Positions 12,409 through 23,475 of a stretch of DNA of 64,000 bases are shown here, in pieces (within the stretch, counting starts at the first letter, position 1; every line of letters starts with the position of its first letter). Source of the stretch: Granulimonas faecalis (GTDB taxonomy: Bacteria > Actinomycetota > Coriobacteriia > Coriobacteriales > Atopobiaceae); assembly GCF_022834715.1 (NCBI RefSeq), contig NZ_BQKC01000001.1, forward strand, positions 408,501 through 472,500, read 5' to 3'. The position numbers were made by a program, and so were the translations under genes. The notes beneath the pieces were generated by a model. It was not told where the DNA came from and ran no database searches. It saw only the letters and a list, made by a program, of their open reading frames with translations.

Positions 12409-15400
12409 CTACTCCATAACTAGGTCGTCGGCGAGCTCGTAGATCGCCTCTCGCAGGGCATTGCGATACTTGATCTTTGAGAGTGCCTGGACTTCTTCGC
12501 TCTCAGCGATCTGCTTATAGCCTTCGGATGCCTGAGACAATATGAATTTTATCCATCCAGTATCGTCCAGGTCCTGCTGGCCGTAGCGGTGATGGCTGAA
12601 CATCTCGTGCATCTTCGCATTCGGGACAATCTCGGTGATGCCCCACTTGACCCTAAACCGCAGAAAGCGCCTGTCCAGACTCGCGTTGTTGGCATCTTGA
12701 ATAATGGGGCCGCAGTCATCCAGCTTCACGGGATAGTCGATCTTTGCGTCTGCGGGCGGGTACTCCTTGCTCACAATAGCCGCGGCTGCCTTGATGATCT
12801 TTGTCGCATAGGAACGGTCCTCGAGGCCGTTGGCAAACTGGCGGATTTCTTCCTGTGTCGCCATTGCCTCGTCAACCTTGTTCTCATGCACCTGGTTCAT
12901 CAACTGCTCGACCAACTCGGCCAGATAGTCGTAGTTGACTTCGACATCCTTGATGTGTGTCATCTGGAGCTCAAGCTGTTGGATGGGGATGCGTTTCTCT
13001 TTGGCGAGGTGCTCCTTGAGCTCGTTTGCGAGGACAGTGGTGAGCCTTGTCTCCTCATCCGGTGTCATCCCGAGTGCTTCAACGATCTTGTCGGGATCGT
13101 CGTAGTCGAATCCGTCCTCACCGTTCACGGTTGTGTACTGCTTGAGCTTGGCCATGCCGCGGTTGTATTCCCGCAACAGGTCGAGCATGAAGTCCTTTTG
13201 GGCCTCCGATGGCGGGAGCTCGTTGAAGTCGCTTGTCAGATCGCGGAGTTTGTCAACCTTTCCTCGAACCGCCTCGAGCATGTCCTCAAATTCAGGCGCA
13301 GTGATTCCGTCCTCAACGTTTTGCTCACTACGCTGCTCGTCGGTAAGATCGGCCGAGTCTTTGTTGGCGTACACGGCCAAGGCCTCGTTCATGAGCCTCT
13401 CGTTGTGGGCGGGCCAGCGATAGTTGACAATGCGTCCCCACGGCTTTTCCTGTAGGTCGGCAATACGGTTTGTGCGCGAGTACGCCTGGATGAGCCCGGC
13501 TCCTTTGAGCGTTCGGTCGACGTAGAGCGTATTGAGCTCCGGGGCATCGAAGCCGGTCAGGAGTTGGTCCACCACGATAACAAGATCGAGAAAGTTCCCG
13601 TCTTTTGCGGTGCGGTTGAGGCGCGTGGTGAGGTCTTGGGTGTAACTAGAGACATCGGCCATGCCAAAGTTGGTGCCGAATTCCTCGTTGTAGGCCTGGA
13701 TAGCCTCAAAGAGCCCCTTGTTGGTTTCTAGCTGAGTATCGTTGTTCGATGTGTTCTGGCTGAACGTAACCGCTACCTTGAGGGTATCCTTGCCCTCATT
13801 CGCGCGCTCGGCGTTCATACGTTGGAACTCTCGGAAATACTTCATCGCCATGGGGGTGCTGGCCTTGCCGCCACCAACGTGGGTGGTGAGCAGCGCGTTG
13901 TATTTGCCGTCGTTTGAGCGGTTACGCCAGTTGTTAAAGATGTCTTGCACCACCAGGGCTATGTGGTCGTCGTTCTCGTCGTAGAAAGACGGCTCCACGG
14001 CATCGTCCATGTCCTCAGGGGTCATGTTGTCGATCTTTTCCTGGATCTGTTCATCGGACCAATCCGGGTGCTGCTGCCTATAAAAACTAGGGAGGTATTT
14101 CTCTCGCATTTCTTGCTCATTGATAGTGGTCTCAAAGTCCACCTTAAAACCGAGTACGTTTTTGTCCGCGATGGCCTCACGGATCGTATAAGAATGGAGC
14201 AGCTTGCCGAAGATGTCCTCGGTTCGCAGAGACGGGGCGTCGTCGAACATTGGAGTGCCCGTATAGCCGACCCATGCCGCATGCTTGAACGCCTGCTGGA
14301 TGGCCTTGAATGACTCGCCTCCGGTGGAGCGGTGGGCCTCGTCAACGATAAAGACGATGTTCTTATCCGGAGACTTGAACGACTTGCGCTTTACCAGGCG
14401 GTCGAGTTTCTGCACCGAAGTGACGATGATTCCGTTGTCCTTCGACTTGAGTTTGCGGCTCAAATCTCCCGTGTTCTGGGTGTCCTGTACACTCGAGGGC
14501 ATCTCGTCGTCTGCGTCCGGGTCATAGGCGCGATAGTTTTCGCTCGTTTGTTTGGTGAGTGCGATGCGATCGACGAGGAAGACCACCTTGTCGATTTTGG
14601 GCATGCGGCTGGCGAGCCATGCCGTTTTGAAACTCGTGATTGTCTTGCCCGAGCCTGTGGTGTGCCAGATGTAGCCGACCTTGTTCACTCCCAGCTCAAA
14701 GTCGACCCGTTTGAGGCCGTCGATCACGTTCTGTGTCGCATACACCTGGTACGGGCGCATGACCTTGAGGCTTTCCTTGTTCTTAGTGCCGTCAAGAATC
14801 ATGTAATTGGTAGCCATCTGGTGAGCCATGGGAATGGAGAGCATAGAGTCTGCGAACTCTTTCCAATTGCGTACCACTGTGTTGTCGCTTTTGCGCTGCC
14901 AGTTGAAGGCAAAGTCCTTATTGAAGCGGTCTGCGGTGGTGTTGGCCATGTACTTCACGTTATTGGGCGTGATGGCTACAAGAATTTGCAGAGTCGAGAA
15001 GATGTCGCGGTACTGGCCTTCATCAATGTACTGTTCCATCTGATTGAGGGCTTCATTGACATCGTGCGTCTCGGTCTTTTCCTCTATTTGAATCACGGGA
15101 AGCCCGTTGATGAGCAACGTGGTGTCGAAGCGACAGTCTCTTTTGCCGGTTATCTTTGCGGGGCGGCGAATCTGGTTCACCACTTGGTAAACGGTGTCGC
15201 CCGCGCCGATTTGCTTTTGGTCGAACACAGTGAGAAACACGTGGCGGCCGTCATCGAGATCGACTTCGATCTGCGAGACACCGTTCATGCCGTAAAGGAA
15301 CTGACCGGCCTGATATGGGGTCTCCAGGTCGGAAATAATGCGTTTTACCTGGTTAAACTCAACCGTGCTCAGTGGGTTGTCGAGGGTGTCCTGGTTGTGG

Positions 15401-15603
15401 CGCTCGAGTATTTTTTTGAAGTTGTCCCAGAGCTGGTCGGTAGTCTTGATCTCCGGCTCGTACTTCCATCGCTTGGTCTTGGCAACGTAGCTTGCCGGCT
15501 CGCACACAACTCCCCACGGGCTCTCGTCGCCCTCCTGTGGGCTCGCGATGGTTCCATTGCAGAGGTACTGAATAAGATCGTTCTCGAACTGGAGTTCGTT
15601 CAC
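12409..15603 (-). CDS. hsdR: Type I restriction endonuclease subunit R
   Basis: 1064 residues, translated from GTG 15603, two bases after the stop of the half-size hsdS. N-terminal PD-(D/E)xK nuclease: Asp 160 and the E-x-K of IQIEEKTE (Glu 174, Lys 176). Superfamily 2 helicase motor: Walker A HTTGSGKT at about 314-321, DEAH box at 421-424, then GYTGTPMF (motif III), TRLNRTAKDGNFLDLVIVVD and QAYSRTNR (motif VI). It translocates DNA and cleaves unmethylated substrate at a distance when bound to M2S. Length and motif order are normal and no disruption is visible. Confidence 0.97.
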   Translation of the reverse strand: MNELQFENDLIQYLCNGTIASPQEGDESPWGVVCEPASYVAKTKRWKYEPEIKTTDQLWDNFKKILERHNQDTLDNPLSTVEFNQVKRIISDLETPYQAGQFLYGMNGVSQIEVDLDDGRHVFLTVFDQKQIGAGDTVYQVVNQIRRPAKITGKRDCRFDTTLLINGLPVIQIEEKTETHDVNEALNQMEQYIDEGQYRDIFSTLQILVAITPNNVKYMANTTADRFNKDFAFNWQRKSDNTVVRNWKEFADSMLSIPMAHQMATNYMILDGTKNKESLKVMRPYQVYATQNVIDGLKRVDFELGVNKVGYIWHTTGSGKTITSFKTAWLASRMPKIDKVVFLVDRIALTKQTSENYRAYDPDADDEMPSSVQDTQNTGDLSRKLKSKDNGIIVTSVQKLDRLVKRKSFKSPDKNIVFIVDEAHRSTGGESFKAIQQAFKHAAWVGYTGTPMFDDAPSLRTEDIFGKLLHSYTIREAIADKNVLGFKVDFETTINEQEMREKYLPSFYRQQHPDWSDEQIQEKIDNMTPEDMDDAVEPSFYDENDDHIALVVQDIFNNWRNRSNDGKYNALLTTHVGGGKASTPMAMKYFREFQRMNAERANEGKDTLKVAVTFSQNTSNNDTQLETNKGLFEAIQAYNEEFGTNFGMADVSSYTQDLTTRLNRTAKDGNFLDLVIVVDQLLTGFDAPELNTLYVDRTLKGAGLIQAYSRTNRIADLQEKPWGRIVNYRWPAHNERLMNEALAVYANKDSADLTDEQRSEQNVEDGITAPEFEDMLEAVRGKVDKLRDLTSDFNELPPSEAQKDFMLDLLREYNRGMAKLKQYTTVNGEDGFDYDDPDKIVEALGMTPDEETRLTTVLANELKEHLAKEKRIPIQQLELQMTHIKDVEVNYDYLAELVEQLMNQVHENKVDEAMATQEEIRQFANGLEDRSYATKIIKAAAAIVSKEYPPADAKIDYPVKLDDCGPIIQDANNASLDRRFLRFRVKWGITEIVPNAKMHEMFSHHRYGQQDLDDTGWIKFILSQASEGYKQIAESEEVQALSKIKYRNALREAIYELADDLVME

Positions 15604-15605
15604 GG

Positions 15606-16175
15606 CTAATGTGCCCCCTTCATTCGTGCTAGCACAAACTTCGTTTCCAGCATTGCCTGCTGTTTCTTCAGAGACTCCAATTTGAGCTGGTTTCTGTAAA
15701 GCGATCCGATCGTCTTCTGAACTTCGAGTGAGGGGAGACCTGAGATCTCGAGCTCGGACAACTGTCTAACGGTGCTCTTTAGGAGCTTTGATCCCTGCCG
15801 TCCAGCGAGCAACTGGTGTCTGGTGCTGCTGTCCTCGTTAAGCAGGTAGGCGAGGTAATTTGCATCAATCGTGGATGGCGGAGTGATGCGCACGTAGTTT
15901 TGGGTGAAGAGGAAGCCGTCGTGGGGCCGCCCGACCGTCGTCGCCTTCCCGGAGATGAGGCTGAAGACCAGATCGCCCGTCTGCAAGGTAAGCACGTCGT
16001 CATTGGTCTTGATAAACCGTGCGCCATGAGTGGATGAATCCTCGCCGAATAGGTCCGCCTCAAGCTCTTCTTGGCCGTAGAAGTAGTAGGTCGGGGCGTT
16101 GGGGTCCGATGTTTCCTCGATGCGTGATTGCGGCGATCCGCTTTTTAGGCCCGCTAGGCCGGCCAGTCGTCCCAT
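15606..16175 (-). CDS. Half-size HsdS-like protein (single recognition domain)
   Basis: 189 residues from ATG 16175, with AAGAAGGA before it. The core (VLTLQTGDLVFSLISGKATTVG, FLFTQNYVRI, NYLAYLLNE, RQLSELEISGLPSLEVQKTIGSLYRNQLKLESLKKQQ) has the beta-rich recognition domain followed by a helical spacer, as in one half of an HsdS. It shares no close sequence with the two-domain hsdS downstream and lacks the repeats used for switching. It could dimerise to make a separate specificity, or act as an accessory. First gene transcribed from the promoter at 16216. Confidence 0.8.
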   Translation of the reverse strand: MGRLAGLAGLKSGSPQSRIEETSDPNAPTYYFYGQEELEADLFGEDSSTHGARFIKTNDDVLTLQTGDLVFSLISGKATTVGRPHDGFLFTQNYVRITPPSTIDANYLAYLLNEDSSTRHQLLAGRQGSKLLKSTVRQLSELEISGLPSLEVQKTIGSLYRNQLKLESLKKQQAMLETKFVLARMKGAH

Positions 16176-16215
16176 AGGAGCATCCTTCTTTGAGCTATCA
16201 GGTAATTGCAATATA

Positions 16216-16243
16216 AGGATAGCCATCCTGAATGGTATGTCAA
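16216..16243 (-). promoter_or_regulatory. Sigma-70-type promoter of the type I RM operon
   Basis: On the minus strand TTGACA (16238-16243) and TATCCT (16216-16221) are separated by 16 bases, about 40 bases before the ATG of the half-size hsdS gene. Confidence 0.65.
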
Positions 16244-16296: not shown

Positions 16297-16920
16297 TTAG
16301 ATGCTCAGGTGGTCGAATTTGGTCACGATGATGTGTTCAAGCACCTTGATCCCCAGGAGTTCACCGGCTTCCTTGAGCTTAGCGGTGGTCTCTAGGTCCT
16401 CGGCTGAGGGTTGCGCCGTCCCGCTCGGGTGGTTGTGAGCGACGATAATGCTTGCGGCTCTGTCTTCGAGGGCCTTTGCAAAGATCTCTCGAGGGTGCAC
16501 TAGGCTCTGATTAAGAGTGCCTTGGAAGATGGTCGTGTTGCTGATGAGTCGGTTCGCTCCGTCCAAAGTGAGCAGCACGAAGTGCTCCTGCTTCTTGTTG
16601 CGAATGGCGCCGAGTTGGGCTACAGCGTCGTCGGTGCAAGAGATGACGGGGCTCTCTGCGGGCATAAGATATCGCCGACCGAGCTCGAACAACGCGACGA
16701 CCTCGCTTGTTTTGGCTGCACCCATGCCCTTTATGGAGGAAAGCTCTCCGTAGGTAACGGAGCTTCCTTTTTCTTTGAGAAGCTTGAGCACCTGCCTTGC
16801 AATGTCGTGAGCAGATACTTGCTTGTTTCCACTTCCGATGAGGATGCGCAGCAGCTCCTCGTCTGTAAGATGCGCAGGTCCGAACTTAACGAGCTTCTCT
16901 CTCGGCATCATGGTGGTCAT
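16297..16920 (-). CDS. radC: RadC-family JAB1/MPN-domain protein
   Basis: 207 residues. The N-terminus (PREKLVKFGPAHLTDEELLRILIGSG, then a helix-hairpin-helix around SIKGMGAAKTSEV) and the C-terminal JAMM metal site (HNHPSGTAQPSAEDLETT) are both intact and typical of UPF0758/RadC. Despite its name no firm repair role is established; the family is frequent on mobile and defence islands, often beside restriction systems, as here. Its lower GC resembles the type I genes, so it probably travels with them. It ends 120 bases before the half-size hsdS gene, which has its own promoter. Confidence 0.92.
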   Translation of the reverse strand: MTTMMPREKLVKFGPAHLTDEELLRILIGSGNKQVSAHDIARQVLKLLKEKGSSVTYGELSSIKGMGAAKTSEVVALFELGRRYLMPAESPVISCTDDAVAQLGAIRNKKQEHFVLLTLDGANRLISNTTIFQGTLNQSLVHPREIFAKALEDRAASIIVAHNHPSGTAQPSAEDLETTAKLKEAGELLGIKVLEHIIVTKFDHLSI

Positions 16921-17027
16921 GCTTTAGCCCCTCGTAGTGACTTATGCATAACGTGCGGCGTACATAGCAACCTATGGTAAGGGATGCTAAGCCGTTGATC
17001 TGTATGGAGCCCCTTCGCTGAGGATGC

Positions 17028-17178
17028 GTTTTTCGGTCCGGAGGTCACCCGCAAGTGGGGTCAGAGGAGGCTGGGTGAATGTGGCTCGGCTTCCAACTCC
17101 AAATGGGTGCAGGGGGCACACGTCGTCCTGCGAGACAAAGCCGTCCCTGGGGGCCGCACCAAGTGGCCACTTGGCGCA
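17028..17178. repeat. Single 24-bp palindromic element with decayed spacer copy
   Basis: 17155-17178 has arms CGCACCAA/TTGGCGCA around GTGGCCAC, the same family as the 1494 and 6179 clusters. About 130 bases upstream, GTTTTTCGGTCCGGAGGT (around 17030) resembles the spacer that follows those elements, so the cluster may once have been larger. The remainder of 16921-17205 shows no gene. Confidence 0.7.
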
Positions 17179-17205
17179 CCCTCTGGCTAAGGCCCCTCGG
17201 CAACC

Positions 17206-17946
17206 CTACGGCCGCTCGCAGGCCTCCAGCTCCTCCGTGATGCGGCCGCCCCCTATCCGGTAGATGCGGTCGCAGAACCCGCCCACCAGGGCCGGGTTGT
17301 GGCCGATGAAGAGAAACGCCGTGCCCAGCTCCCGGTGGACCCTCCCAAGCAGCGCCATGACCTTGGCCTGGACGGTGACGTCCAAGGCGCTCGTGGCCTC
17401 GTCGCACAGGAGGAGCTTGGGCCTGCCGATGACGGCCCGCGCGATCGCCGCCCGCTGGCATTCCCCGCCGGAGAGCTCGTACGGAAACCTCTCCGCGTAG
17501 GACCCGGGCAGCTCCACGGCCTCAAGCGCCTCCCTCACCAAGCGGTCCTTGTCGGCCCCCTTGAACCGCGGCAGGTAGCGGGCCCCCTCGAAGACGGCGT
17601 CGCCCAGGCGCATGGTCGGGATAAACGACGCCTCCGGGTCCTGAAAGACCATCTGCATCCCCAGCCAGGCCCGCCTCACCGCGGCCGACCGGCCCCTCGG
17701 CAAGCGGCCGCCCCCGGAGCGCTCCACGCCGTCAAACCGCACATGGCCCGCGTTGGGGGAGAGGAGCCCCGCCGCGATGCACGCGAGCGTGCTCTTTCCG
17801 CTGCCACTGGGGCCCATGAGCCCCACGCGCTCCCCGGCCCCCACCCATATCGACACATCGTCCAGGGCGAGCAGCCCGGACCGCCGGTACCTCTTGGACA
17901 CGCCCTCCAGGCGGAGAAGGGCGTCCCCGCCGCCCTCAGGCCCCAT
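17206..17946 (-). CDS. ABC transporter ATPase, nickel/peptide type (second)
   Basis: 246 residues, last of a five-gene ABC importer operon. Walker A GPSGSGKST at about 45-53, Q-loop VFQDPEASF, signature LSGGECQRAAIAR, Walker B LLLCDEATSALD, H-loop FIGHNP. It is of the DppF/NikE/OppF class, which pairs with a DppD/NikD-class ATPase; the start overlaps the partner gene by 11 bases. It lacks the usual C-terminal oligopeptide-type extension with conserved cysteines, which fits the nickel branch better than the peptide branch. Confidence 0.9.
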   Translation of the reverse strand: MGPEGGGDALLRLEGVSKRYRRSGLLALDDVSIWVGAGERVGLMGPSGSGKSTLACIAAGLLSPNAGHVRFDGVERSGGGRLPRGRSAAVRRAWLGMQMVFQDPEASFIPTMRLGDAVFEGARYLPRFKGADKDRLVREALEAVELPGSYAERFPYELSGGECQRAAIARAVIGRPKLLLCDEATSALDVTVQAKVMALLGRVHRELGTAFLFIGHNPALVGGFCDRIYRIGGGRITEELEACERP

Positions 17947-18733
17947 CGCCGACCCTCCTGAACGTCCTTCCCGTCCTCGGCACGGCGTCGATGAGCTCCC
18001 GGGTATAGGGCTGCGACGGCCTCGCCATCACCCGCTCGGTGGGGCCCTCCTCCACGATCCTCCCGTCCCTCATCACGGCGATCCGCCGGGCCACCTGCGC
18101 GGCGAACCCGATGTCGTGGGTCACCGTGACGAGGGCCACGCCCTCCCTCGCGTTGAGGTCCCCGAGCAGCCCGCCCACCTTGTCCCGGGCCTCCTCGTCC
18201 AGGCCGCCGGTGGGCTCGTCGGCCAGCAGCAGGCTGGGGCCGCACGCCACGGAGAGCGCCACGGCCACCCGCTGGCACTGGCCGCCGGATAGCTCCCGGG
18301 GAAACGCCGCCAGGACCCGCCCGGGGTCCTCTATGCCCATCCTCCGGAGGAGGGCCTCCCCCCAGGAGGGCGGCACCTCCTTGCCGTGGGCCCGGAGCAC
18401 CTCGTCGAGCTGCCGCCCGACGGTGAACAGCGGGTCCAGGGACTCCCGCCCGTTTTGGAAGACGTAGGCTATCTGCGACCCTCGCAGGGACCGCAGCACC
18501 CTGCCCGGCGCCGTGACGAGGTCGGTGCCGCGGAACTCGATGGCGCCCGACTCGATACGGGCCTGGCACGGCAGCAGCCGTGCGATGGAGCGCAGCAGCG
18601 TGCTCTTGCCCGACCCGCTCTCGCCCACGACGGCGAGGCTCTCCCCGGCACCCAGCTCAAGGCTCACCGAGGCCAGGGCCCGGTTGGGGCCGTAGCTCAC
18701 GGTGAGGGAGTCTATCTCGAGCAGTCCGTCCAT
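17936..18733 (-). CDS. ABC transporter ATPase, nickel/peptide type (first)
   Basis: 265 residues. Walker A GESGSGKST, Q-loop YVFQNGRESLDP, signature LSGGQCQRVAVAL, Walker B LLLADEPTGGLD, H-loop VTHD. DppD/NikD-class partner of the following ATPase; the two form a heterodimeric motor for the two permeases encoded upstream. Between it and the binding-protein gene lies the 24-G tract. Confidence 0.9.
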   Translation of the reverse strand: MDGLLEIDSLTVSYGPNRALASVSLELGAGESLAVVGESGSGKSTLLRSIARLLPCQARIESGAIEFRGTDLVTAPGRVLRSLRGSQIAYVFQNGRESLDPLFTVGRQLDEVLRAHGKEVPPSWGEALLRRMGIEDPGRVLAAFPRELSGGQCQRVAVALSVACGPSLLLADEPTGGLDEEARDKVGGLLGDLNAREGVALVTVTHDIGFAAQVARRIAVMRDGRIVEEGPTERVMARPSQPYTRELIDAVPRTGRTFRRVGDGA

Positions 18734-18776
18734 GGGTGGCGCGCTTTCTGCCGGCCCTGTGCCCCGCGCCCGCGTC

Positions 18777-18800
18777 GGGGGGGGGGGGGGGGGGGGGGGG
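18777..18800. repeat. 24-base G homopolymer
   Basis: Twenty-four consecutive G on the plus strand (C on the coding strand of the operon), abutting the TGA stop of the binding-protein gene at 18801 and lying 43 bases before the next start at 18733. It is not inside a coding region. Such a tract is highly prone to slippage; it may also mark a low-quality join in the assembly. Confidence 0.95.
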
Positions 18801-20387
18801 TCAGGCGACGTCGGTGTCGACCGTCACGAAATAGTACTCCGAGGGCGCCACGTCGAGACCGGACACGGCCGAGGTGCTCAGCACCGTCGCGTCGGGGTTG
18901 GAGAAGAAGACGCAGGGGTTGTCGTTCAACACCACCTGGGCGATCCGGCGCGCGATCCCGTTGCGCTCGTCCTCGTCGAAGGTCTCGTCCAGCCGCGCGA
19001 CGAGGGCGTCCACCTCCCCGTTGGAGTAGCCGCCGTAGTTGGCCGAGGCGCCGGTGACGAAGTGGGTCCTCGCGAAGTAGGCCGGGTCGCCGGTGGGGGC
19101 CATGGCGGAGCTGTCGAGGGTCATGTCGGGGTCGTCCTCGGCCCAGGTCCCCTTGTCCTCCAGGAAGTAGTCGGTGGGGACGATCCGGAGCCGTATGCCG
19201 GCCTGGGCGAGCCTGGACTGGAGGTCGTCGGCGATCTGGACGAAGCGCTCGTAGCTGGTGCAGGTGTAGAGGTCGAGCTCCACCGGGGCGCCGTCGAGCT
19301 CGCGGACGCCGTCGCCGTCGGTGTCGGTTATCCCGGCCTCCTCGAGGACCCGGGCGGCCGCCGCCACGTCGCAGCGGTCCACGGTCACCCGGAGGCCCTC
19401 GGTGCCCCCGAAGGGCAGGGTCCGGCTGTAGACGCCCCAGCTCGGGGTGGCGTTGCCCTGGCAGACGACGTCCGCGTAGCCGTCCCGGTCTATGCAGTAT
19501 GCGACGGCCGTGCGCACCGCCGCGTTCTGGATGACGGGGTGGGTCATGTTCATGCAGATGAAGTCGGCGCGGGAGGTCGTTTTCCGGGAGACCCGGTAGT
19601 CGCCGTCGCCGTCCCGGGCGAGGGTGGCCAGGGTGGAGGCGGAGGGCATCGCCACGGCGTCGATCTCTCCGTTCTGCATGGCCATGGTGATGGCGTTGTC
19701 GTCGGAGAAGCACGTGAGCCGCACCTCTGAGAGCTTGGGGGTGCCCCGCCAGTAGTGCTCGTTGGGGCCCATGACGATGTGGCTCTCGGCCTCGAACTCC
19801 CGCATCATGTAGGGGCCCGTGCCCGGGGTCTCCCTTGCGTAGTCGACGTCGTCGCCCACGTAGTACACGCACAGGAGCGGGTCGCACAGGGCGTTCTCCA
19901 GGGAGGGCACGGCCTCCCTGGTCCTGATGGTGAGGGTGTTGCCCTCCGCCGCGAGCCCCTCGCAGGGCAGGGTCTCCATCCCGCGCGGGTTCCTCTCCAA
20001 GGTGCGCTCCCAGGCGGCCTTCACGGCGGCGGCGTCCACGGCCTCGCCGTTGGAGAACTCGATGCCGTCGTTGAGGGTCACCTTCCAGGTGCGGTCGTCC
20101 ACCCGCTCGGCCCCCGCGGCCAGCCAGGGCTCCGGGGTGAGGTCGTCGCCCACCCTGAAGAGGGTCTCCACGATGCCGTAGTAGATGAGGTACCAGCTGT
20201 CCCACTCGGAGGCGGGGTCCATGGTCTCGGCGGAGAAGTGGGTGGTGGAGCCGGCATGGAGGGTCTTCTCGCCGGAGGCACGGGGGGCGGTCTGCCCGCC
20301 GCCGGAGCACCCCGCGAGCAGGAGGGCGCCGAGCAATAGGATGAGTGCGGCCATCGCGGGCCGCGCCGTCGTGACGGGTCGGGTCAT
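18801..20387 (-). CDS. ABC transporter substrate-binding lipoprotein, family 5
   Basis: 528 residues from ATG 20387, with GGGGGAG before it. The N-terminus ends in a lipobox, LLLAGCSGG (Cys about 26), so the mature protein is anchored outside the membrane. The SBP family 5 pattern is clear: ETMDPASEWDSW, GIVETLFRVGDDLTPEPWLA, VTLNDGIEFSNGEAVDAAAV, GTGPYMMREFE, NAAVRTAVAYCIDRDGYA. The ETMDP..ETLF..PWLA series resembles nickel- and metallophore-binding NikA/CntA proteins more than oligopeptide binders, so nickel or a metal chelate is my preferred substrate, with dipeptide the alternative. Third gene of the permease-permease-SBP-ATPase-ATPase operon. Confidence 0.9.
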   Translation of the reverse strand: MTRPVTTARPAMAALILLLGALLLAGCSGGGQTAPRASGEKTLHAGSTTHFSAETMDPASEWDSWYLIYYGIVETLFRVGDDLTPEPWLAAGAERVDDRTWKVTLNDGIEFSNGEAVDAAAVKAAWERTLERNPRGMETLPCEGLAAEGNTLTIRTREAVPSLENALCDPLLCVYYVGDDVDYARETPGTGPYMMREFEAESHIVMGPNEHYWRGTPKLSEVRLTCFSDDNAITMAMQNGEIDAVAMPSASTLATLARDGDGDYRVSRKTTSRADFICMNMTHPVIQNAAVRTAVAYCIDRDGYADVVCQGNATPSWGVYSRTLPFGGTEGLRVTVDRCDVAAAARVLEEAGITDTDGDGVRELDGAPVELDLYTCTSYERFVQIADDLQSRLAQAGIRLRIVPTDYFLEDKGTWAEDDPDMTLDSSAMAPTGDPAYFARTHFVTGASANYGGYSNGEVDALVARLDETFDEDERNGIARRIAQVVLNDNPCVFFSNPDATVLSTSAVSGLDVAPSEYYFVTVDTDVA

Positions 20388-20401
20388 GGTCTCCCCCAGG
20401 T

Positions 20402-21274
20402 TCATCGGGTCGTGTCTCGGGCGCTCCCCGCGGGCCCGCTGGGCCGGGCGCCGCCGTGGGTCTGCGATCCGGCGTCGAGTGCCTCGCGCAGCGTGTCGCC
20501 CAAGAGGTTGAAGATCGCCACGGTCAGGAAGAGCGCCGCCATGGGCACCAGCATGCACCAGATGGCGTACTGGAAGGTGGGCTGGGCCTCGGCCATCATG
20601 GCGCCCCAGTCGTTGGTGGGGCGCTCGGGGCCAAGGCCGATGAATGAGAGGCCCGCCATGGTGAGGACCACGTCGCTCACGGAGAGCGCCGCCAGGGTGA
20701 TCGTGGGCCCTGCCACCTGGGGCAGCAGGTAGCGGACGACTATGGCCCCGGTGGGCGCCCCGCACATCCTCGCCGCCTTGAGGCGGTCTGATTGCCTGAA
20801 CGACGCGGCCATGGCCCGCGAGAGCCTGGCGAACTGCGTCCAGTACACCGCGGCTATGGCCAGCACCATGTTGGGCACCCCCGGGCCGAGGACGCCCGCG
20901 ACGGCCACCGCGAGGACGAAGCTCGGGAAGGCCTGGAAGGCCGTGACCACCTTGTCCACGACGTAGCCCCACGGGCCCCCGAGATAGCCGCCGAGCAGGC
21001 CCACCGCCACGCCCACCGCTGCCACCACGGCGACGGTGACGAGCCCCAGGAGCACCGACTCCCGACCACCGGCGACGGTGCGCATGAGGACGTCCCTGCC
21101 CAGGGAGTCGGTCCCCAGCAGGTGGCCGTCGCCCGGCGCCCTGAGGGCCTCGCCCAGGTCGGTCGCGTTCACGCTGGCGGGGAGAAAGGCCGGTGCGACG
21201 AGGAGAAACCCGACGAAGGAGCAGGTCAGGGCCGCTGCAAATAAGAGCCTTCGCCCGCCGCGCGCCCTAGTCAT
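20402..21274 (-). CDS. ABC transporter permease, DppC/NikC type
   Basis: 290 residues with about six membrane helices. The N-terminal HLLGTDSLGRDVLMRTVAGGR is the signature of DppC/NikC permeases, and the EAA-loop region reads SDRLKAARMCGAPTGAIVVRYLLPQ. The C-terminal GLSFIGLGPERPTNDWGAMMAEAQ is also typical. It overlaps the upstream permease gene by eight bases and precedes the binding-protein gene by 14, so all are co-transcribed. Confidence 0.93.
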   Translation of the reverse strand: MTRARGGRRLLFAAALTCSFVGFLLVAPAFLPASVNATDLGEALRAPGDGHLLGTDSLGRDVLMRTVAGGRESVLLGLVTVAVVAAVGVAVGLLGGYLGGPWGYVVDKVVTAFQAFPSFVLAVAVAGVLGPGVPNMVLAIAAVYWTQFARLSRAMAASFRQSDRLKAARMCGAPTGAIVVRYLLPQVAGPTITLAALSVSDVVLTMAGLSFIGLGPERPTNDWGAMMAEAQPTFQYAIWCMLVPMAALFLTVAIFNLLGDTLREALDAGSQTHGGARPSGPAGSARDTTR

Positions 21275-22346
21275 CCCCCGCCTCCCCCTCGACGGAGGGG
21301 TCGATGAGCCGGCAGGCGCCGTCGACGGCGGCGTTGACGAGCAGGTACACGACGGCTGCCACGAGCGCGTAGGCGCCTATGAAGGGGTAGTCCCGGTGAC
21401 CCACGGCCTTGATGGACTCGAACCCGAGACCGGGCCAGCCGAAGATGCCCTCCACGATCGCCGAGCCCCCCAGCAGCATCCCGAAAGCCGTGCCGGCGAG
21501 GGTGAGGAGCGGCACCAGGCTGTTCTTGAGCACGTGGACAAGGACGATGCACGGTTCCGGGACGCCCCGCGCCCGGAGGCCGTCCACATAGGCCGACGAG
21601 AGCTGCCCTATGGCGACCGTCCGCAGCTGACGCGTGAGCCATGCCGACAGCGGGAGCGCCGTCGCGACGGTGGGCAGGAGGATGCCCGCCAGGTCCCTGG
21701 TCGAGAGGACGTCGAGCGTCCTGAGGCGCACGGAGAACACGTAGAGCAGCAGGAGCGCCACAAAGAACGAGGGCATGGAGCAGAAGAGGTAGGTGGCCGC
21801 CTGTACGGCCCTGTCCAGGGGCCCTCCCTGCCAGTAGGCGCAGGCCAGGGCGAGGGGCACGGAGACGAGGAGCGTCAGCACGATGGACGAGAGGGCCAGG
21901 GCGAGGGTGTAGGGCAGCGCGTCGAGCAGCACCTCGGCCACCGGCTCGCCGCTTCTGAGGGACGTCCCGAGGTCGCCGCGGAAGACGCCCGCCACCCAGC
22001 CGGCGTACTGCTCGGCAAAGGGCCTGTCGAGGCCCAGCTCCGCGCGCTTCTCGGCGAGCTGCGACTCCGTGGGGGAGACGCCCGCCTCAGCGAACGACCT
22101 CACCGCGGCGTCGGTGGGGGAGAGGTACGAGAGCAGGAAGGCGACCAGGGTGACCAGGAACACGACGACCAGGGCCCCGGCCAGGCGGGCCAGGACCGGG
22201 GCGGCGCCATCGGTGGCCCGGGACTTCTTGGACACGGTAGGACGGTCACCCCCCATGGGTCTCTCGGCGGTCGCAAACGGCCCGCCAACGGGGCCGGCTG
22301 GCCGCCTGGCATGCAGCTGTCTATGGTATGGGAGGATATCAGACAT
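21267..22346 (-). CDS. ABC transporter permease, DppB/NikB type
   Basis: 359 residues, first gene of the importer operon. The ATG at 22346 is preceded by GGAGGAGA with eight-base spacing, so I prefer it, although it gives a 45-residue N-terminal extension unusual for the family; ATG 22256 or a GTG shortly after would give the normal length. Family features: AELGLDRPFAEQYAGWVAGVFRGDLG (in the periplasmic loop), GEPVAEVLLDALPYTLALAL, the EAA region SSAYVDGLRARGVPEPCIVLVHVLKNSLVPLLT and GWPGLGFESIKAVGHRDYP. Confidence 0.9.
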   Translation of the reverse strand: MSDILPYHRQLHARRPAGPVGGPFATAERPMGGDRPTVSKKSRATDGAAPVLARLAGALVVVFLVTLVAFLLSYLSPTDAAVRSFAEAGVSPTESQLAEKRAELGLDRPFAEQYAGWVAGVFRGDLGTSLRSGEPVAEVLLDALPYTLALALSSIVLTLLVSVPLALACAYWQGGPLDRAVQAATYLFCSMPSFFVALLLLYVFSVRLRTLDVLSTRDLAGILLPTVATALPLSAWLTRQLRTVAIGQLSSAYVDGLRARGVPEPCIVLVHVLKNSLVPLLTLAGTAFGMLLGGSAIVEGIFGWPGLGFESIKAVGHRDYPFIGAYALVAAVVYLLVNAAVDGACRLIDPSVEGEAGDD

Positions 22347-22437
22347 TGATTGTCTCCTCCGGCCGGTCGGCGGTAGGGTCGGAGTGACAGGTCGACCTGG
22401 GGTACCTTGTCATGGGGCCGAGAGATCGGAGGGTGCC

Positions 22438-23079
22438 GTGGCTTTCATCTATGCGATGAGCGACATGCATGGCGACATGGAGGCGTTCGACCGGGCCCTG
22501 TCGGTCGTGGACCTGGACGACCCCGCCAACCGGCTGGTCCTGTGCGGCGACTACATGGCGCCGCCGGACACCGACACTGCCATGATCCGGCTCATCATGG
22601 GGATCCAGGGCGAGCATCCCGGCCAGGTGATCGCGCTCATGGGCAACCACGAGCTCGCGTACCTCGAGGACCACAGGGCCGTGGCGTCTGCGGACGACCC
22701 CGTGGTCGCGTGGCTGCGCGGGCTCCCGTATTACTGGGAGACCGACACGCAGATATTCGTCCATGCCGGGGTGGACGAGGAGGCGCAGGACCTGTGGAGG
22801 TACGGGTCCGAGGACGCCTACTTTTGCGAGAAGTTCCCCTGGAGCACCGGCGCGTTTTTGAAGGACGTGATCGCCGGGCACGTGGGCACCGCCACCATCG
22901 CGGACGACCCGTGGTTCCACGACGTCTACTGGGATGGCCAGAGCCATTACTATCTTGATGGATCCGTGCACGTGAGCCATCGGATCCCGGTGCTCAAGTA
23001 CGACACGGTCGCCCGGAGGTACACCTGCTTCCGCTTTGGTGCCGACGGGTCCGTCGAGGAGCATGAGCCCATGCTGTGA
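22438..23079 (+). CDS. Calcineurin-like metallophosphoesterase (Ser/Thr phosphatase-like)
   Basis: 213 residues from GTG 22438, just after CGGAGGG. The metal-binding blocks of the superfamily are in order: SDMHGD (8-13), LCGDYM, GNHEL, and later IFVHAGVDEE and IAGHVGT. The pattern is of the PrpA/PrpE/ApaH branch. It lacks long inserts and a signal peptide, so it is cytoplasmic. It is divergent from the ABC operon, and a GC hairpin at 23156-23185 follows it. Confidence 0.88.
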   Translation: MAFIYAMSDMHGDMEAFDRALSVVDLDDPANRLVLCGDYMAPPDTDTAMIRLIMGIQGEHPGQVIALMGNHELAYLEDHRAVASADDPVVAWLRGLPYYWETDTQIFVHAGVDEEAQDLWRYGSEDAYFCEKFPWSTGAFLKDVIAGHVGTATIADDPWFHDVYWDGQSHYYLDGSVHVSHRIPVLKYDTVARRYTCFRFGADGSVEEHEPML

Positions 23080-23475
23080 TGGGGGACGTTTCCGTTTTGG
23101 AACGAGTGGAGGTGTTCAAATTCGTAGTAGAGCCGGACGACACGCACAAGGGTAACGGCCTCCGGAGTCTCGTAATCGGAGGCCGACTGCCTCATTCAGA
23201 CAGGGGATTATGGCCGGGATGTATGTCTCCCAGCTGCCGATGACCTCGGCAGCTCCAGAAAACACCATGGGCTAAGAAGATATATCAAGCCTTCTGGCGA
23301 GGGTGGCCCTCGACAGTATTAATGCATGAGGCCTTTGGAGCGGCCTCGTTTAGCCTGCTATGGTTCGTTAGCTAATGATTTGTTGTATTAGAACATGGTG
23401 TAAACATGACAGAGTCTGAGGCTGCGAGCTCCGAGAATGTGGTCCAGGTTCTAGTCGGTATGCGGATAGATTTAA
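23080..23475. other. Non-coding stretch after the phosphatase gene
   Basis: No gene seen. Two hairpins are present: 23156-23185 (CGGCCTCCG pairing with CGGAGGCCG) and 23328-23347 (GAGGCC with GGCCTC, followed by GTTT). GC drops along this stretch, marking the left edge of the accessory cluster that ends near 26 kb. Confidence 0.6.

Follow-up and report, generated by a model that had tools for sequence, protein, structure and literature searches.

The window, the 64,000-nucleotide stretch of the Granulimonas faecalis genome analysed here, contains an operon for an ABC transporter, all genes of which lie on the minus strand. Permease 1 (21267–22346) and permease 2 (20402–21274), both matching BPD_transp_1, are followed in the direction of transcription by a solute-binding lipoprotein of the SBP_bac_5 family (18801–20387; PF00496, E 6.2e-64) and by two ATPases (PF00005, ABC_tran), ATPase 1 (17936–18733) and ATPase 2 (17206–17946), the latter overlapping the end of the former. 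The closest NCBIfam models for the transporter are nickel- and peptide-type importers; the binding protein matches the broad SBP_bac_5 family and reaches no NCBIfam equivalog cut-off. An assignment to the NikABCDE nickel transporter is not supported, as the binding protein scores 317.5 bits for Opp5A_nikA against an equivalog cut-off of 600. Genes resembling a type I restriction system, recognized by eye, adjoin the operon at 12409–16226.

The junction between the binding-protein and ATPase 1 genes carries an uninterrupted run of 24 G on the plus strand (18777–18800), flanked by C at 18776 and T at 18801. A 24-base homopolymer directly past a stop codon within an operon had been reported at this place by the first-pass annotation, and its position is confirmed to the base. 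Given the minus-strand orientation of the operon, the tract is C24 in the transcript, where it starts at the first base past the TGA of the binding-protein gene (18801–18803). The remaining spacer (18734–18776) comprises 43 nt between the end of the tract and the ATG of ATPase 1 at 18733, is G-rich and has no clear Shine-Dalgarno motif by eye. The tract thus accounts for 24 of the 67 nt separating the two genes and, as had been proposed, lies outside any coding region. Upstream of ATPase 1, its frame meets a stop before any start codon, so that neither protein can be altered by tract length via the reading frame.

The junction in related operons

The order of binding protein and ATPase is kept in all 23 relatives examined, a set from which three weaker class matches that yielded no locus were left out. 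Their junction gaps span 4–103 nt, approximate values because each ATPase start was placed by extending an alignment; the longest G/C run found there is of five bases. This range indicates that the spacer length of the operon is loosely constrained and free to vary. In the seven closest relatives, which belong to another family of the order and whose binding proteins are 53–72% identical, the gaps measure approximately 7–27 nt and the runs do not exceed three bases. Compared with these gaps, the 67 nt of Granulimonas faecalis show that the tract does not account for the whole change in the spacer. A conserved feature of the operon is ruled out, since none of the 23 relatives has a junction run longer than five, and the tract appears, as far as seen, private to the Granulimonas faecalis lineage, in a collection where the genus is represented by one genome. 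An exact peptide pattern search of the genome contigs found no close relatives. While the binding protein is 53–72% identical to copies in that other family, it reaches at most 37% within its own, a pattern across families which suggests that the operon may have been acquired horizontally.

A general element consisting of a C tract behind stop codons was also considered. In 296 genomes of the class, TAA or TGA followed by C10 occurs at 35 sites, versus 11 for the mirrored pattern, an excess that we take as compositional. Only four of 20 examined sites out of these 35, this tract among them, lie past an open frame of at least 100 codons, which rules out such an element.

Long G/C runs in the genome and the family

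Within the window, the other G runs reach at most 9 bases and the C runs at most 6. The whole genome (2,231,317 bases in two contigs) contains 38 G/C runs of at least nine bases, counting both strands: 25 of 9, five of 10, three of 11 and two of 12, followed by single runs of 17, 21 and 24, the tract being the longest. Fitting a geometric distribution to the lengths 9–12 gives an expectation of 0.005 runs of at least 17 and 2e-6 of at least 24, and a model of independent bases predicts 8e-6 for the latter, so that the earlier statement that the tract is very unlikely by chance is well founded. Runs of at least nine bases are, on the other hand, rarer than the 139 expected from independent bases, which indicates that long runs are generally disfavoured and that a few have escaped upward. 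Twenty-eight of the 38 runs lie outside predicted genes, versus approximately 29% of the flanking bases (p 1.4e-8), an intergenic fraction that is approximate because genes were predicted with a crude, home-made finder based on codon usage.

The two other overlong runs are also intergenic: C21 (L011:2822-2842) is found between convergent genes, and G17 (L012:2771-2787) lies shortly past a stop codon, before a gene pair that resembles IS200/IS605 by eye. When the flanks of those among the 38 tracts that are no longer than 20 nt were searched for −35 and −10 boxes (the 24-nt and 21-nt tracts exceed the spacer range and were dropped), a single G12 scored high, with 10 of 12 positions, where shuffled flanks lead one to expect 0.04 over all tracts tested. 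This G12 (L009:2084-2095; G000:C1:698583-698594) fills the spacer, of exactly 17 nt, between TTGACT and CATAAT, and is a candidate phase-variable promoter. Another G12 (L010:2395-2406; G000:C1:1462894-1462905) is located at the meeting point of two different reading frames, one with a ParB domain and the other with an N6/N4 DNA methylase, beside genes that we read as terminase-like; it may represent a phase-variable or broken phage-type methylase.

Across the family, runs of at least G16 are present in 18 of 140 genomes, this one included, many of these genomes being draft assemblies. Several of the runs are found at contig ends, beside N stretches or in low-complexity sequence and are possible artefacts. 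A clean case comes from one genome (G051), which contains a single site in two copies, L049 and L058, with G16 in one and G21 in the other; their upstream flanks agree at 100 of 100 bases and their downstream flanks at 109 of 110. Together with the excess of length described above, this instability elsewhere in the family bears out the earlier description of the tract as prone to slippage. In these two copies and in L029 of another genome (G002), poly-G of 16, 21 and 19 bases, respectively, directly precedes a −10-like hexamer (TAGACT, TAGAAT), and in L049 and L029 a frame with a signal-peptide-like start lies past the hexamer; the three are candidates for promoters through which slippage would control secreted proteins of the family. 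Two species of one genus (G054 and G053; L035 and L189) apparently share a site: one has G12, and the other a run that reaches at least G22 and at which the contig stops. Two genera also have poly-G at a shared site (L034:1502-1529 and L046; G051 and G120), with flanks 93% identical over 1 kb, directly before a frame that starts MRVLLVNKFHY and looks by eye like a glycosyltransferase; one of the two loci carries several runs and an N stretch.

The fact that several such runs end contigs or adjoin N stretches, and the error-prone nature of homopolymers, raise the question whether the tract is an assembly or sequencing artefact, either a real tract of wrong length or the mark of a misjoin. We consider this unlikely: the tract is inside a 2.08-Mb contig, and further long runs, of 17 and 21 bases, exist in the same genome. 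Of the mis-assembly suspected earlier, a misjoin does not hold, because the binding protein aligns with its relatives to the last residues and the same ATPase comes next, which gives a normal operon order on both sides; the length of 24 is that of the assembly and may be inexact.

By a GuaA search, the nearest records are Kribbibacterium absianum (87%) and Atopobiaceae/Olsenella, which places the Granulimonas faecalis genome in the Coriobacteriia. Profile searches of this genome gave no match to MutS_I and none to MutL, and the sole signal for NucS was below the cut-off, in a protein for which UPF0102 gives the higher score. Nor did any of the 140 genomes of the family match MutS_I, a profile that 11 of 14 control genomes did match. 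According to the excerpt available of PMC5290159, all Coriobacteriia analysed there are devoid of NucS and of MutS-MutL, and indels of one or two bases are not repaired even by NucS, as stated in part of PMC11551767. Taken together, the failure to detect MutS, MutL and NucS and these reports suggest that slipped loops in G/C runs probably go uncorrected in this organism.

Possible regulatory roles of the tract

The first-pass annotation had proposed that changes in tract length could alter termination, or the coupling between the binding protein and the ATPases. A scan of 16900–23200 detected no intrinsic terminator, defined as a GC stem followed by a T run. Among effects of the proposed kind, a Rho-type one is the most plausible. 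In such a length-tunable attenuator, the naked C24 past the stop codon would help Rho to load, so that some transcription would end before the ATPase genes, and a longer tract would give fewer ATPases per binding protein. The RNA is untranslated, as the tract lies directly past the stop; the genome encodes the RNA-binding domain of Rho (92.5 bits); and among 40-nt segments of the operon the one with the tract has the greatest excess of C over G, ranking first of 5102. At 78 nt, nearer the full length for Rho loading, the region is, however, only joint best, its value being reached by five of 5064 windows, and peaks of at least 0.30 number 26–28 on each strand of the analysed stretch. The published preferences of Rho also speak in favour: the parts available of PMC4167861 describe unstructured C-rich RNA as preferred by the Escherichia coli protein and polyC as the best homopolymer for that of Mycobacterium tuberculosis, and those of PMC4746626 mention Rho sites for C-rich intergenic tracts. 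C24 resembles a rut site in being C-rich and past a stop codon in a genome that encodes Rho, but differs in being short and followed by G-rich RNA. The G-rich character of the next 43 nt, the predicted pairing of approximately 55% of the tract, the continuation of the same operon into the ATPase genes and the lack of anything conserved at the junction in relatives all weigh against the attenuator, which we regard as improbable. A Rho-loading, slippery rheostat, by which slippage would determine, cell by cell, how much binding protein is made per ATPase in a class without a known mismatch-repair system, is more doubtful still.

A phase-variable switch outside any coding region, as also suggested at first, finds no support in the analysis: the junction has no promoter, no intrinsic terminator, no special fold and no affected frame, and none of the 23 relatives has a comparable run. 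The scan of 16900–23200 found no promoter-like site, which rules out a role of the tract as a promoter spacer. C24 shares its slippage-prone poly-G/C nature with the phase-variable tracts of Neisseria, Helicobacter and Bordetella, but is located outside both promoter spacers and coding frames. The least probable reading is that of a selected phase-variable spacer, in which tract length would set coupling or re-initiation at ATPase 1 and thereby graded on/off switching of the importer; the lack, by eye, of a good Shine-Dalgarno motif before ATPase 1 means that its initiation may depend on an upstream ribosome, and short gaps are kept in the closest relatives, but the junction RNA folds no better than its shuffles (z +1.37, less stable than most), neither a conserved tract nor a promoter was found, and a nutrient or metal importer is atypical as a phase-variable surface antigen.

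Probable slippage in a tolerant spacer

With a probability of approximately two in three, we favour the reading that the tract is a slippage-expanded and probably length-variable G/C simple-sequence repeat in a tolerant intercistronic spacer, mostly neutral for the transporter. It would have arisen and grown by polymerase slippage within the spacer, where changes in length would be cheap and hence tolerated, while slipped single-base loops would probably stay uncorrected in a genome without MutS-MutL and NucS. Short G/C runs would remain rare under this regime, and a few in tolerant places would run away to 17–24 bases. The length of the tract would then probably differ between strains, with little consequence for the transporter. 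The most likely reason for its tolerance is that Coriobacteriia have no known mismatch-repair system. Two points speak against this reading: the spacer differs from those of the closest relatives by more than the tract, and, if missing repair sufficed, more genomes of the family should have long runs, while only 18 of 140 reach G16, though many of the assemblies are drafts.

The closest published parallel, judging from the portions available of PMC4746626, is found in the tracts of Propionibacterium (Cutibacterium) acnes, which are also actinobacterial G/C runs, mostly intergenic and subject to slow slippage. There, 54 variable tracts were described, 96% of them G or C and 72.2% intergenic (28 of 38 runs here), and their variation, shown across 90 genomes, is slow and clade-consistent, accumulating rather than switching. 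Two examples from there with an effect on expression are tracts of 5–7 C in promoters, whereas the present case concerns one genome and an intercistronic run of 24 bases. A literature search on homopolymers in Olsenella or Eggerthella found nothing beyond general papers. The tract is extreme in length and, as a probable slippage tract, ordinary in kind.

If it were true that tract length changed ATPase expression, the junction would constitute an unusual intercistronic rheostat. As a slippage tract, C24 illustrates well how homopolymers can run away in a lineage with no known mismatch repair; it also offers a ready marker for strain typing, and it makes testable how Coriobacteriia, without MutSL and NucS, control slippage.
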